DNA of 8,460 bases from Tannerella sp. (lineage in GTDB: Bacteria; Bacteroidota; Bacteroidia; Bacteroidales; Tannerellaceae): the NCBI GenBank assembly GCA_031268395.1, contig JAIRXI010000386.1:1-8460 (forward strand). Reading direction: 5' to 3'. The position numbers and the translations under genes were made by a program. Positions 2,844-7,886 of this stretch are shown here, in pieces. Below the pieces are notes generated by a model. That model was not told where the DNA came from. It made no database searches and was given only the letters and a program-made list of their open reading frames with translations. The number at the start of each line of letters is the position of its first letter. Position 1 is the stretch's first letter.

Positions 2844-2950
2844 ACGATAAAACTGTTACATTAATAAATTTTTATTTCAACCAATCACACCGCCTGTCCG
2901 ACGGCACAATCCTTTTTATAAACGTTCGGGAAATGGTTTTATTTTATCCC

Positions 2951-3009
2951 AACATGTCCATTAGACACTTCCTCCGTCGTGTCCGGGAGGCCCTGCCGGT
3001 AAAAAATGG
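2951..3009 (+). repeat. Dispersed repeat, copy A (plus orientation)
   Basis: This copy carries ACATGTCCATTAGAC, then CTTCC and GTCGTGTCCGG, followed by a CTGCCGG block and AAATGG. It shares its first 35 or so bases with the copy at about 7925-7963. Its later part matches the 57-bp inverted repeats at 3059-3115 and 3403-3459, with gaps. It is inverted relative to the 3059-3115 copy. Confidence 0.65.
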
Positions 3010-3058
3010 CCCGCAACACACGATGGCCCGGGACGGCCTACGGGTTGACGGGCAGATG

Positions 3059-3115
3059 TTCCATTTGCTGCCGGCAGGCAGTCTTTTCTTCCGGACACGA
3101 CAAGAGAAGCGTCTA
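3059..3115 (-). repeat. Left inverted repeat, copy D of the dispersed repeat
   Basis: Read on the minus strand it contains TAGACGCTTCTC, GTCGTGTCCGGAAG and the palindromic block CTGCCGGCAGGCAG. It differs from the reverse complement of 3403-3459 at three positions. The inner GCCGGC block is self-complementary. Confidence 0.8.
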
Positions 3116-3120
3116 TTTTT

Positions 3121-3140
3121 CTTAAAACGCTCATTTTAAG
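3121..3140. repeat. Perfect 7-bp inverted repeat (small hairpin)
   Basis: CTTAAAA (3121-3127) and TTTTAAG (3134-3140) are exact complements around a six-base loop. The stem lies between the left inverted repeat and the tandem array. There is no following T-run on either strand, so it is not a typical terminator. Confidence 0.6.
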
Positions 3141-3164
3141 GACAAAATCAGATTTTACGGGGCA

Positions 3165-3375
3165 AATTTCCCTATGGAAATCGGTAATTTCCCCATAGTA
3201 ATTGAGCATTTCCCTATAGTAATTGGGAATTTCCATGCAGGAATTCCCGATTTCCATAGGGGAATTGGCAATTTCCATTAGGGAATTGGTAATTTCCATG
3301 CAGGAATTGATAATTTCCCATTAGGGAATTGGCAATTTCCATTAGGGAATTGGGAATTTCCCTATGGAAATCGGG
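3165..3375. repeat. Tandem array of ten 21-bp near-palindromic units
   Basis: Units start at 3165, 3186, 3207, 3228, 3249, 3270, 3291, 3312, 3334 and 3355. All are 21 bp except the 3312 unit, which is 22. A degenerate eleventh unit follows to about 3395. Each begins with (A/G)ATTTCC or a close variant, has a variable centre (ATTAGGG, CTATGG, ATGCAGG or ATAGGGG) and ends in AATTGG or a variant. Units are imperfectly self-complementary (CCAATT near one end, AATTGG near the other). The first and tenth units are almost identical. There are no unique spacers, so it is not a CRISPR array. Confidence 0.85.
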
Positions 3376-3402
3376 GATTTTCCGGCTGTATGCGGACTTG
3401 AT

Positions 3403-3459
3403 TAGACGCTTCTCGTGTCGTGTCCGGAAGAGAAGACTGCCGGCAGGCAGCAAACGGAA
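3403..3459 (+). repeat. Right inverted repeat, copy C of the dispersed repeat
   Basis: This is the plus-strand partner of 3059-3115, with the TAGACGCTTC side facing the tandem array and the GCAAACGGAA side facing out. It carries GTCGTGTCCGGAAGAG and the CTGCCGGCAGGCAG block. Confidence 0.8.
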
Positions 3460-3650
3460 TACGGTAAATCGTTTTTGGGGTCAAGACAGCGTGCCATAGC
3501 TGTCAACTGTATGTGCCGCAAAGATATGTCTTTGCCGCATTTCCGCCAAAACCGTCTGCATATTCCGGCAATCAGGAAAACGTATTGCCGATCTTTGCGG
3601 ATGCGGTGAAGCAATCCGGCAAACCTGTTCCTGTCCATGCATAAAGTATA
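3460..3650. other. Gene-free stretch between the repeat element and the operon promoter
   Basis: Apart from the minus-strand promoter at 3519-3550, I see no supported gene here. Open frames exist on both strands, but they lack family resemblance and run into the repeats. Confidence 0.4.
3519..3550 (-). promoter_or_regulatory. Consensus Bacteroidota promoter firing leftward into the repeat element
   Basis: On the minus strand, TTTG (3547-3550) and TATCTTTG (3519-3526) are separated by 20 bases, an exact fit to TTTG-N(19-21)-TAnnTTTG. Transcription would start near 3512 and run through 3459-3059. The -7 element lies in an imperfect inverted repeat (GCCGCAAAGA at 3515-3524 and TCTTTGCCGC at 3530-3539). 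No gene begins close downstream. The nearest minus-strand gene starts at 2843, so the product may be non-coding or a very long leader. Confidence 0.4.
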
Positions 3651-3714: not shown

Positions 3715-4947
3715 ATGAAGAAAACAATTGCAGCTATTTTGGGGATATGCCTGTGCTTGTCCTGCCGGTCAGAGAAAGATGGTGGGATAACATTGGCGGT
3801 GCAGGCCGGCGCGTTTGACCGGCAGGACTGTGTGGTCTCGGTCGGGATTCCGGAAGGAAAAGGAGTTTCGGACTGGGAATTGATCGAACGGAAAGGATGG
3901 AAAAACGTAAAAGTCCCTTCCCAGACCGTGAAAGCAGAGGGCAAAACCATCCTCTACTGGATACTGGCCGGCCACACGAAAGCCGGCGACATCCGGACAT
4001 TCGTGGCCAGGCCGGCAGAGAGACAGCCGGCGCAGAATGCCATGGAAGTGGAAGATACACGGAAATCCCTGATCCTGAAAAAAGACGGGAAACCCGTCCT
4101 GCAATACAATTATACGTGCGTGGAGCCGCCGGCAGGGGTGGACACCATTTTCAGACGCAGCGGATTCATTCATCCGGCCTACTCCCCTGCGGGAAATGTA
4201 CTGACGAACATCCATCCGAAAGACCACTATCATCATTTCGGGATATGGAATCCCTGGACACATGTCGTGTACGACGGCAAGCTCCATGATTTGTGGAATC
4301 TGGGCGAACGGCAGGGGACGGTACGCGCCGGAGCCATCAGGGGCACAGCACAGGGAAGCGTTTTCTGCGGTTACGATGCGGCGCTGGATCACGTGATTTT
4401 TACGCCGGAAGGCGAAAAAACAATCATGGAAGAATGCTGGAAAGTGAAAACATGGAACCTCCCCGACGTTTTCCTCTGGGATTTCGAATCGCACCTGTCC
4501 CCCTCCACCCCTCTTCCCCTCCTGCTGGAAGCTTACCGCTATGCCGGTTTCAGTTGTCGGGCGACGCCGGAATGGACAGGGGAGAACTGCGTAATGCTTA
4601 CTTCCGAAGGAAAAACCCGGCAGGAGATCGACGGCACCACTGCCCGCTGGATATGTATGACCGGAGACACGCAAACCGGACGTTCGGGACTGCTCTTCAT
4701 GAGTCACCCGCAAAACTACAATACCCCCGAACCCCTGCGTATCTGGGACGAACAGGCCAATGCCGGACGGGGAGACGCCTTTATCAACTTCGCCCCCACC
4801 AAAAACAAAAACTGGGAACTGGAACCCGGCAGGCACTATCTGTTGCGTTACAGGGTGCTGTCATACGAAGGCGAAATGACCTCCGCAACTGCCGACCGCT
4901 TCTGGAATGATTTTGCACATCCCCCGGCAGTCGAAACCGAACAGTAA
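3715..4947 (+). CDS. DUF6807 (PmoA-like) family lipoprotein
   Basis: This 410-residue protein begins with a lipoprotein-like signal (MKKTIAAILGICLCLSC, candidate lipid-bearing Cys17), so it is probably membrane-anchored outside the cytoplasm. Residues 25-105 form a beta-rich N-terminal module. Residues 110-400 carry the DUF6807 domain: RSGFIHPAYSPAG (148-160), the histidine cluster HPKDHYHHFGIW (167-178), LHDLWNLGE (190-198), SHPQNYNTPEPLRIW (330-344) and YLLRYRVLSYEG (375-386). The family is often labelled 'methane oxygenase PmoA', but it has no resemblance to membrane methane monooxygenase and that name is misleading. Its activity is uncharacterised as far as I know. The clustered histidines and aspartate could bind a metal or act in catalysis. 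It leads a four-gene operon that ends in mannonate-pathway enzymes, so a role in processing a uronate-containing sugar is inferred. The first ATG lies about 25 nt after the predicted transcript start. Confidence 0.82.
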   Translation: MKKTIAAILGICLCLSCRSEKDGGITLAVQAGAFDRQDCVVSVGIPEGKGVSDWELIERKGWKNVKVPSQTVKAEGKTILYWILAGHTKAGDIRTFVARPAERQPAQNAMEVEDTRKSLILKKDGKPVLQYNYTCVEPPAGVDTIFRRSGFIHPAYSPAGNVLTNIHPKDHYHHFGIWNPWTHVVYDGKLHDLWNLGERQGTVRAGAIRGTAQGSVFCGYDAALDHVIFTPEGEKTIMEECWKVKTWNLPDVFLWDFESHLSPSTPLPLLLEAYRYAGFSCRATPEWTGENCVMLTSEGKTRQEIDGTTARWICMTGDTQTGRSGLLFMSHPQNYNTPEPLRIWDEQANAGRGDAFINFAPTKNKNWELEPGRHYLLRYRVLSYEGEMTSATADRFWNDFAHPPAVETEQ

Positions 4948-4971: not shown

Positions 4972-5868
4972 ATGAAAAAAAGTATCTTTATCGCACTGCT
5001 TGCATGCAGTTGCGGCATGTTGAAAGCCGGCAATCCGGAGATCTCGGCCGTCAGGACAGGCAGCCGGATCGATGTAACCGTCAGCGGCAATTTTTTTACG
5101 AGTTACCATTTCCCGGAAGACGAAAAGTATCCGTTCTTCTTCCCGGTCAACGGGCCGGTATCGGGCGGCAGCATGACGTCGATGCGCAACGGGATCTGGC
5201 CGCATCACACGTCGCTCTTCTTCGGATGCGACCTCGTGAATGGCGGCAACTACTGGCAGGAAGGGCTGGAACGGGGACGCATCATTTCCATCGGCGCCCG
5301 CATTACGGAAACCGGGGGCGAACGCGCAGTCATCGAAGACGAATGTATCTGGAAGCGTCCCGATGCGGAAGCGCCCATCCTCGACCGGAGGAAAATCACC
5401 GTCACGGCGCCCTCCGCCACGCTGTACCAGCTGGATTTCGACATCGAAATGGAAATGCTGACGGATGTAACCATTCTGAAAACGAATCACTCGCTGTTCA
5501 GCGCGCGAGTCGCTCCGGACATCTCCGTCGCACAGGGCGGAACGATGGTGAACGCCGAAGGCCTGGAAGGCGAAAAAGCTACATTCGGCGCCGCTTCTCC
5601 ATGGATCGACTGCCACGGGGCGCGGAAGACCGGCATCGAAGGCATTGCCATCCTGCAACACCCGTCCAACCCCTGGTTTCCGTCACCCTGGTTCACCCGC
5701 GACTACGGTTTCATTTCCCCCACCCCCATGTACTGGCCTGCGGACGACCAGGCTACCCGCCTGAAAAAGGGAGAAAAAATAGCGCTTCGCTACCGTGTGC
5801 TCGTCCATGCAGGCGACACCCGGCAGGCAGACATTGCCGGAGAATACGAAAAATACAGGGCGAAATGA
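4972..5868 (+). CDS. Second DUF6807 (PmoA-like) family protein, exported
   Basis: This 298-residue protein is a shorter relative of its neighbour. It has an N-terminal export signal (MKKSIFIALLACSCGMLKAG), either cleaved after Ala19 or lipidated at Cys12 (LLAC). Shared hallmarks are WPHHTSLFFG (76-85, parallel to the upstream YHHFGIW), ILQHPSNPWFPSPWF (227-241, parallel to SHPQNYNTPEP) and ALRYRVLVHAGD (271-282). It lacks the extra N-terminal module of the 410-residue protein. It begins 24 bases after that gene; AAAAGGA upstream gives it a ribosome-binding site unusual for this phylum. Its stop overlaps the start of the oxidoreductase gene (ATGA), indicating translational coupling. Two divergent copies side by side suggest two related steps or substrates rather than recent duplication. 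Enzymatic activity is unknown. Confidence 0.8.
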   Translation: MKKSIFIALLACSCGMLKAGNPEISAVRTGSRIDVTVSGNFFTSYHFPEDEKYPFFFPVNGPVSGGSMTSMRNGIWPHHTSLFFGCDLVNGGNYWQEGLERGRIISIGARITETGGERAVIEDECIWKRPDAEAPILDRRKITVTAPSATLYQLDFDIEMEMLTDVTILKTNHSLFSARVAPDISVAQGGTMVNAEGLEGEKATFGAASPWIDCHGARKTGIEGIAILQHPSNPWFPSPWFTRDYGFISPTPMYWPADDQATRLKKGEKIALRYRVLVHAGDTRQADIAGEYEKYRAK

Positions 5869-6677: not shown

Positions 6678-7886
6678 ATGGCGCTGGAGAAAACCTGGCG
6701 GTGGTTCGGGAAGGGCGATTCCGTCCCGCTGGCCTATTTGCGGCAGATGGGAATTGAAGGCGTCGTCACGGCGCTGCATCATATCCCGGCCGGAGAAGTC
6801 TGGCCGGTCGAAGAAATCCGTGCCGTCCGGGACGGAATTGCATCCTGCGGGATGCACTGGAGCGTCGTCGAAAGCTTGCCCGTTGCCGAAGGCATCAAGA
6901 CCCATTCGGCGGACTATCCGCGCCTGGTGGAGAACTATCGCCGCTCACTGCACAATCTGGGCGCGTGCGGGATCGACACGGTGTGCTATAATTTCATGCC
7001 CGTACTCGACTGGGCCCGTACCGACCTGCACCACCCGAACGGTCGGGGCGGCGAATCGATGCTGTTTGATTATCCGACGTTTGCCGCTTTCGACATCCAC
7101 ATCCTGCGACGCAGGGATGCGGCGGATGACTACGACCCTGCCGTCCGCCGGAAGGCGCAGGAGATAGCCCGTCGCATGACCGTCGCGCAGCAGGAGGAAC
7201 TGGCGCATAATATCATTGTCGTTACGCAGGCCTTTATTCACGGATCCGTCGGCGAAGGCGGCGATTACAGGCGGCAGTTCCTGAACTGCCTGGATACTTA
7301 CAGGCATATCGGGCCGGAGGTTTTGCGGGAACATCTGGCCCGTTTTCTGCAAGACGTCGTTCCGGCGGCTGAAGAAGCGGGCGTCAATCTCTGCATCCAT
7401 GCCGACGATCCGCCGTTTCCCCTGCTGGGATTGCCGCGTATTGCAAGTACGCTGGACGATTTCCTGCACATCACGGCGCAGTATGATTCGCCGGCCAACG
7501 GCATCACCTTCTGTACCGGTTCGCTGTCGACGCGCCCGGATAACGACCTGGCAGCAATGGCACTCGCCTTGGCCTCGCGGATACACTTCGTGCACCTGCG
7601 CAACACGATAGCCCTGCCCTGCCGCAGTTTCTGCGAATCCGACCACCTGACGGGAAGCGTTGACATGGTTGCCATCATCGGGATTTTGCTGGAAGAGCAG
7701 GCCGCACGAATCCACGCCGGACGCAGGGATGCGCGCATGCCATTCCGCCCTGACCACGGCGTCCGCATACTGGACGATTTCTCGCGGACGGCCAACCCAG
7801 GCTATCCTCTTTACGGACGCTTGAAGGGGCTGGCCGAAATCGACGGAATGCAGCAGGCCATCGCGCGGATGACGGGGATGGTTTAG
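6678..7886 (+). CDS. uxuA: Mannonate dehydratase
   Basis: UxuA removes water from D-mannonate to give 2-keto-3-deoxy-D-gluconate, the entry to KDG kinase and aldolase. The 402 residues match the full family length (about 394 in E. coli). Family motifs run throughout: TWRWFG (6-11), TALHHIPAGEVWPVEEI (31-47), CYNFMPVLDWARTDL (103-117), IHADDPP (240-246), FCTGSLS (278-284), HFVHLRN (303-309), RPDHG (357-361) and NPGYPLYGRLKGLAEIDG (373-390). By motif, the Mn2+ ligands known from family structures would be H241, C279, H306 and D359, with H360 and a tyrosine of PGYPLYG near the active site. All are present, so the enzyme should be active. The start is three bases after the uxuB stop. No KDG kinase, aldolase, isomerase or uronate transporter is in the window, so the rest of the pathway is encoded elsewhere. 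Confidence 0.95.
   Translation: MALEKTWRWFGKGDSVPLAYLRQMGIEGVVTALHHIPAGEVWPVEEIRAVRDGIASCGMHWSVVESLPVAEGIKTHSADYPRLVENYRRSLHNLGACGIDTVCYNFMPVLDWARTDLHHPNGRGGESMLFDYPTFAAFDIHILRRRDAADDYDPAVRRKAQEIARRMTVAQQEELAHNIIVVTQAFIHGSVGEGGDYRRQFLNCLDTYRHIGPEVLREHLARFLQDVVPAAEEAGVNLCIHADDPPFPLLGLPRIASTLDDFLHITAQYDSPANGITFCTGSLSTRPDNDLAAMALALASRIHFVHLRNTIALPCRSFCESDHLTGSVDMVAIIGILLEEQAARIHAGRRDARMPFRPDHGVRILDDFSRTANPGYPLYGRLKGLAEIDGMQQAIARMTGMV

Follow-up and report, generated by a model that had tools for sequence, protein, structure and literature searches.

The 8,460-nucleotide stretch of Tannerella sp. DNA analyzed here (the window) very probably contains a composite mini-transposon copy that is truncated and carries no gene. 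An IS1380-family transposase likely moved the element in trans, and the element's array of 21-bp repeats, predicted to form hairpins, likely originated by capture from a resident repeat family. In the mechanism that we propose, a MITE would have captured a resident element made of a leader and an array, the copy number of the composite would have risen after this capture, an IS1380-family transposase would have mobilized the composite in trans, and the copy in the window would then have lost its right end. The part of the BrickBuilt study available to us (PMC4596501) leaves open the origin of the tandem array inside the MITE. Here, the leader and array are also present outside the MITE in sister species, which makes capture directly testable, and a sister species whose MITEs have the same ends and other arrays represents a natural replicate.

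Structure and limits of the element in the window

Two inverted arms, at 3059-3115 and 3403-3459, are separated by 287 nucleotides, as the first-pass annotation had described; they are identical at 52 of 57 positions rather than at the 54 that it had counted. The array between them has a period of 21 bp with a single 22-bp step and comprises about 10 units (overlapping TRF rows score 77-224), and no gene lies within 3059-3459, in agreement with the ten units and the absence of genes reported earlier. The limits first proposed for the element, 3059 and 3459, had to be revised. On the left, it extends 111 bp beyond that interval to a terminus at 2948 (CCCAACATGTCC...); its right terminus is missing, the sequence breaking off after approximately 3461. 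Comparison with other copies indicates that the 57-bp arms are subterminal parts of a palindromic base element and not its termini. As the window copy has no right end, its target duplication cannot be compared, and the copy is probably immobile now. The features of the locus are as follows.

2943..2947, no strand: TTTAT, abutting the left terminus and putatively one half (the left) of a 5-bp target duplication; similar AT-rich 5-mers flank paired copies
2948..2971, + strand: left terminal inverted repeat, CCCAACATGTCCATTAGACACTTC, an exact 24-mer match whose first 17 bp are common to IS1380-family remnants, with mismatches
2948..3115, + strand: left palindromic base element without its inner terminal repeat, containing the arm 3059-3115 (from comparison with other copies)
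3116..3163, + strand: array leader, which sister species conserve without the MITE ends (window match at 3117-3192, E value 4.8e-19)
3164..3375, + strand: tandem array of about 10 units of 21 bp with alternating dyads (from TRF and unit comparison)
3376..3402, + strand: array tail (GATTTTCCGGCTGTATGCGGACTTGAT), then the junction with the right base element (from the sequence)
3403..3461, - strand: right base element, inverted, ending after GGAATA, with its outer terminal repeat missing; complete counterparts reach the terminal repeat, e.g., at C291:12574 (contig coordinates)

Folded as single-stranded DNA, 2948-3461 reached -134.6 kcal/mol, whereas 100 dinucleotide-shuffled sequences averaged -66.7 (SD, 5.4), giving z = -12.7. 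The surrounding frames code for a DoxX-domain protein (700-2208), two DUF6807 proteins (3715-4947 and 4972-5868) and the mannonate dehydratase UxuA (6678-7886); a domain search found no family for the frame at 2454-2843.

An array encoding a heptad-repeat peptide would be in keeping with a period that is a multiple of 3 and with the open frames that cross the arrays, and yet it is extremely improbable. In unit strings from which indels had been removed, no frame was open in all 30 arrays, stops occurring in 5 to 24 of the 30 depending on the frame, and in the window the 22-bp step shifts the frame. A coding array was rejected on these two grounds.

Terminal repeats, target sites and candidate transposase

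The search of the host genome recommended at first pass showed that the sequence is not single copy, the outcome named there as refuting the reading, as 3059-3459 gave 126 matches, with both strands and partial ones counted. Beyond the left arm, copies elsewhere in the genome have a terminal repeat, CCCAACATGTCCATTAGACRCTTC, that corresponds to 2948 in the window, the termini of the family being 17- to 24-bp repeats beginning with CCC. At up to three mismatches, the 24-mer end has 135 copies in the source genome and none in the reversed control, and it was found in two others of the 41 genus genomes, in one and two copies. The 17-bp end at up to one mismatch is present in 18 of the 41, with 163 copies in the source genome, 44 in G062, 10-16 in five genomes and 1-5 in eleven; its reversed control gave 2 in the source genome and 0 elsewhere. 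Window positions 2946-3058 used as a query matched 46 times in the genome, its own match included and many of them partial, and 82 genome segments contained 124 MITE ends at up to five mismatches.

Ends located by profile and lying head to head 30-1,100 bp apart were paired, yielding 36 pairs in the source genome that include some alternative pairings of identical ends. The paired elements are 50-963 bp long and have the generic attributes of MITEs, being short and multicopy, with inverted ends and without a transposase gene. Exact 5-bp direct repeats were found just outside 17 of the 36 pairs, and repeats with at most one mismatch outside 26, the corresponding 5-bp rates between unrelated copies being 6.0% and 35.9%. 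No pair had an exact duplication of 3, 4, 6, 7 or 8 bp. The 19 pairs lacking an exact 5-bp repeat include mispairings of nested or neighboring ends, although this is not demonstrable for all of them. The simple palindromic form is represented by C241:7305-7489, 185 bp long with TTAAT on each side. Array-bearing copies are composed of half a base element on the left, the leader, the array and the tail, mostly with an inverted second half on the right, and their inner terminal repeats are trimmed back. The right junction (...GATTAGACGC) is identical in 9 of the 12 array copies compared at the right end and differs in C99, C205 and C286. At their outer ends, six of eight array-bearing pairs (C20, C93, C99:163-578, C118, C205, C209, C253 and C291, with the alternative C99:163-632 omitted) have an exact 5-bp duplication, and the other two have one with a single mismatch. 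The initial reading of the locus as a MITE thus holds for a non-autonomous, multicopy element of Bacteroidales with an array inside; it fails for the 57-bp arms as its ends and, as described below, for an array specific to the MITE.

The empty sites and target duplications that the first reading called for were both found at other copies; no empty site was found for the window locus. C9:3095-3310 is flanked by ATTAT and ATGAT, a duplication with one mismatch, and its flanks are continuous without the element in C253 and C291. The array-bearing copy C99:163-578 has its uninterrupted site in C209, where 109 bp match at 91.7% and two gaps of one base each lie next to the junction. Both insertions sit in other repeats of the MITE family. 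A further short repeat (with GAACGGGGGCATTGTGTATTTATAATTTTCAACTTTCAACGG), found within and beside the MITEs of C9, C253, C291 and C99, was their target. For the window itself, the upstream genes were seen at none of 19 relatives' loci, in a comparison covering up to 1.5 kb upstream of the shared gene, six of the loci being inspected closely. Of the 41 genus genomes, 31 (the source genome counted) match the downstream DUF6807 gene.

The composite might have arisen and spread by homologous recombination between dispersed repeats rather than by transposition. Consistent with that, copies are mosaic and nested, several lie at contig ends, and flanks are common to C253 and C291 on the left and to C253 and C205 on the right. 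Nevertheless, the exact outer duplications of the array-bearing pairs and the uninterrupted site argue against recombination, which we regard as improbable.

With respect to transposition, we infer that the MITE ends were cut by an IS1380-family transposase. A remnant on C76 is the genome's single strong IS1380-type match (NF033539; E value, 4.2e-45; bit score, 153.8, short of the curated cut-off, 180). Approximately 200 bp beyond the stop of its open frame lies CCCAAAATATCCATTAG, identical to the MITE end at 15 of 17 positions and directly following an apparent C terminus in another frame, as read by eye. Relatives of the C76 protein were found in nine of the 41 genus genomes; among the matches listed, all are broken or partial, one being cut by a contig end. 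The remnants in G027, G001, G033 and G063 are accompanied by the 17-bp end with 1-3 mismatches, and those in G025, G030, G024 and G004 have no such end within five mismatches. In C76, G027:C358 and G027:C346, query residue 251 lies 206-208 bp from the end. A 184-bp element of G015 has these ends and an exact ATTAT duplication; inside it lies a motif that the G027 remnant also contains. No exact 5-bp duplication was detected at the transposase remnants whose flanks were inspected. The transposase with matching ends that the first-pass annotation had suggested seeking is therefore represented by IS1380-family remnants, not by an intact copy: none was seen in the source genome (82% complete, 425 contigs) or among the genus matches listed. 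Since G027:C358 runs off the contig end, an intact copy may exist.

Within the family, 5-bp duplications are described for IS1247 in the accessible portion of PMC3281130, and capture of adjacent DNA via surrogate ends for ISPme1 and ISEcp1 in that of PMC9330008. The ends, the 5-bp duplications, the uninterrupted site and the 17-bp match beside transposase remnants indicate that the window element is a member of a MITE family, likely mobilized in trans by an IS1380 transposase.

The IS4-family transposase of C341 was rejected as the parent, because the MITE end lying 22 bp beyond its frame is oriented away from it. At this locus (L145:2-1102, G000:C341), where the IS4-family frame lies beside the MITE end, the right end of the insertion sequence was not seen.

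The leader and array outside the MITE

Used as a query against 61 genomes, 3059-3459 matched in five, all of the same genus and including the source genome; the four relatives matched the leader and array alone, at query positions 56-333. Plasmid and phage collections gave no match to this query. A leader profile built from 12 sequences had 22 matches in the source genome, one of them a 29-base fragment, together with six in G023, five each in G063 and G031, three in G029, two in G004 and a weak one in G027, that is, in 7 of the 41 genomes with the source. Among 198 genomes of the order, a search with stricter filters, in which scoring was limited to the 24 best first-look candidates in the genomes listed, retrieved the source genome, two weak partial leader matches and nothing else. 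A leader pattern gave 24 stretches, with an array downstream, judged by eye, at only four loci, in G029 and G023.

No MITE end was detected at up to three mismatches at 20 of the 21 sister-species leader loci, in the DNA examined, some of which is cut by contig ends. TRF reported arrays at 17 of the 21, all of period 21 when periods of 19-24 were considered; in three of these arrays the unit is present in just 2-3 copies. Sister species thus have the array without the MITE, to which it is not restricted. Because five sister species have a leader and array that are not accompanied by these ends, the MITE likely captured them, and the array likely predates the composite. In the source genome, 18 of 21 leaders examined are joined to the arm, at the same arm end, which leads us to infer that a single capture event founded the array-bearing form. 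Of the remaining leaders, that of C63 starts at a contig end inside the arm, and those of C173 and C260 have no such join on their left side. As C260 has the right MITE junction without a left arm, it may be a truncated composite instead of an ancestral array.

The presence of the leader in six species and the period of 21 wherever TRF found a sister array would also suit a structured RNA or DNA that serves the host, such as a transcribed hairpin series or an insulator, and that the MITE spread secondarily. This is a tentative and rather unlikely explanation. Rfam 15 yielded no family at gathering score, with 0 matches in the window, L056, L057 and L051, and the orientation of the arrays to neighboring open frames is mixed, according to crude ORF calls.

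Several sister loci have features of their own. L215 (G063:C68) has a leader without a TRF-reported 21-bp array and one MITE-type end about 0.5 kb away, possibly a second capture. When native arrays were searched for inverted repeats of their own around them, 1 of 12 exceeded shuffles; this locus, L226 (G029:C9), has its leader and array within a separate inverted repeat of about 28 bp and is possibly another type of element. Two native arrays of G004, L216 (C110) and L222 (C107), have a common right flank of about 160 bp at 94%, suggesting that native arrays also disperse or duplicate by some means. At L228:685-1377 (G031:C281), a 231-residue frame matches no Pfam family; relatives of it lie close to the G031:C49 and G004:C107 arrays, and the frame next to it, with a release-factor PCRF domain, has a relative beside the G004:C110 array.

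Pairing of array units, related arrays and known systems

We compared 286 units from 32 arrays. Arm positions were paired within the unit at a frequency of 0.849, compared with a mean of 0.636 and a maximum of 0.667 (200 draws) when arms were set against those of other arrays; the captured copies in the source genome are related by descent, and the arrays are not independent. At arm positions 5 to 8, A-T and G-C are each the majority pair of whole arrays, both sides having changed. Units are alike within an array and unlike between arrays, and the source genome alone has several arm types, an argument against a single sequence-specific binding protein. Averages inside arrays differ weakly, at 0.847 for the unit's own arm, a figure favored by choosing the array phase for best pairing, 0.850 for the next and 0.825 for other units; own exceeded other in 13 of 30 arrays and next exceeded other in 17. 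Variant right arms were matched by the nearest left arms in 20 of 95 cases (expected, 5.1) and 17 of 63 (expected, 3.7), and by more distant left arms in 8 of 90 (expected, 4.6) and 4 of 38 (expected, 2.8). Folding relative to shuffled-unit arrays was mixed: of 18 units, 12 were equaled by no more than 10 of 200 shuffles and 6 by a larger number.

The arrays could be neutral satellites in which template switching within hairpins, not selection, keeps the arms paired. The likeness of units inside an array and their difference between arrays fit this scenario, as does nearest-arm compensation that exceeds expectation and weakens with distance, and we give it somewhat less than an even chance; alone, it leaves the constant 21-bp period and the conserved leader unexplained. 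The pairing within units, and the fold of the window array as RNA, which is better than that of shuffles (z = -6.8), are also what a host-serving structure would show. Selection and hairpin-guided correction could each maintain pairing. With regard to the composite MITE, the array is likely a passenger whose fold is kept rather than its sequence. A fold that truly persisted under a changing sequence would mean that the array serves some role, either in the element or in the host.

Other arrays between the same ends were found in sister species. At 50 loci examined in G062, G015, G027, G021 and G029, paired ends were present at 24, and 15 of these pairs had an exact 5-bp duplication, a count favored by retaining the best alternative pairing and allowing up to four end mismatches. 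A separate locus of the source genome, L263, is 180 bp long without an array or an exact duplication. Tandem repeats occur in 16 of the 24 pairs, with a best period of 41 or 42 in 14, of 82 in one and of 23 in one, and 10 pairs have both an array and an exact duplication. Their distribution is uneven, with arrays in 14 of 15 pairs in G062 and 2 of 9 in the other species, and G062 alone has several array unit types. At L255-L261, L264 and L265 (G062, G027 and G021), the same 17-bp ends enclose unrelated arrays of period 41/42 or 23.

It is conceivable, if rather doubtful, that IS1380-type MITEs of the genus repeatedly took up hairpin arrays (of 21, 41/42 and 82 bp, and one of 23) with periods near whole multiples of two helical turns, and that fold and spacing were kept rather than sequence. 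The array would then be a working module, for instance one folding the mini-transposon or shielding neighboring genes, that Porphyromonas would have reached independently on IS5-type ends.

The literature examined, which covered few subscription journals, contained no account of tandem arrays in IS1380-derived MITEs, and their absence is unproven. According to the portions available of PMC9330008 and PMC3281130, the ISPme1 and ISEcp1 modules are likewise of the IS1380 family and captured adjacent DNA, but they have a transposase, whereas the Tannerella MITEs consist of ends and captured DNA only. The Tn3-derived TIMEs, as presented in the accessible text of PMC4133298, are similarly non-autonomous, mosaic transposon-like structures; their ends are of the Tn3 family, while here the ends are matched by IS1380-type remnants.

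The closest parallels are in P. gingivalis, described here from the accessible part of PMC4596501. BrickBuilt has the ends GAGACCTTTGCA (GAGACC..., IS5-type), a 23-nt unit, 19 copies and irregular target duplications. As the first-pass annotation had proposed, its architecture resembles that of the Tannerella element: both are gene-free intergenic MITEs, in the same order of bacteria, with a leader, an imperfect array of short units, a tail and a predicted fold. The Tannerella ends are CCCRAMATGTCCATTAG, the unit is 21 bp long, 17 of 36 pairs have exact 5-bp duplications and the array is also found outside the MITE. Membership in BrickBuilt was rejected, since both the ends, here beginning CCCAACATGTCC, and the repeat length differ, and the family is distinct, a point that had been left conditional. 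MITE464/PgRS, known here by description only, has a 41-nt tandem array, like the G062 and G027 MITEs with their arrays of 41/42 bp, and differs in its IS5-type ends, GAGACTGTTGCA. In form, the P. gingivalis MITEs with 23-nt and 41-nt arrays are strikingly like those of Tannerella.
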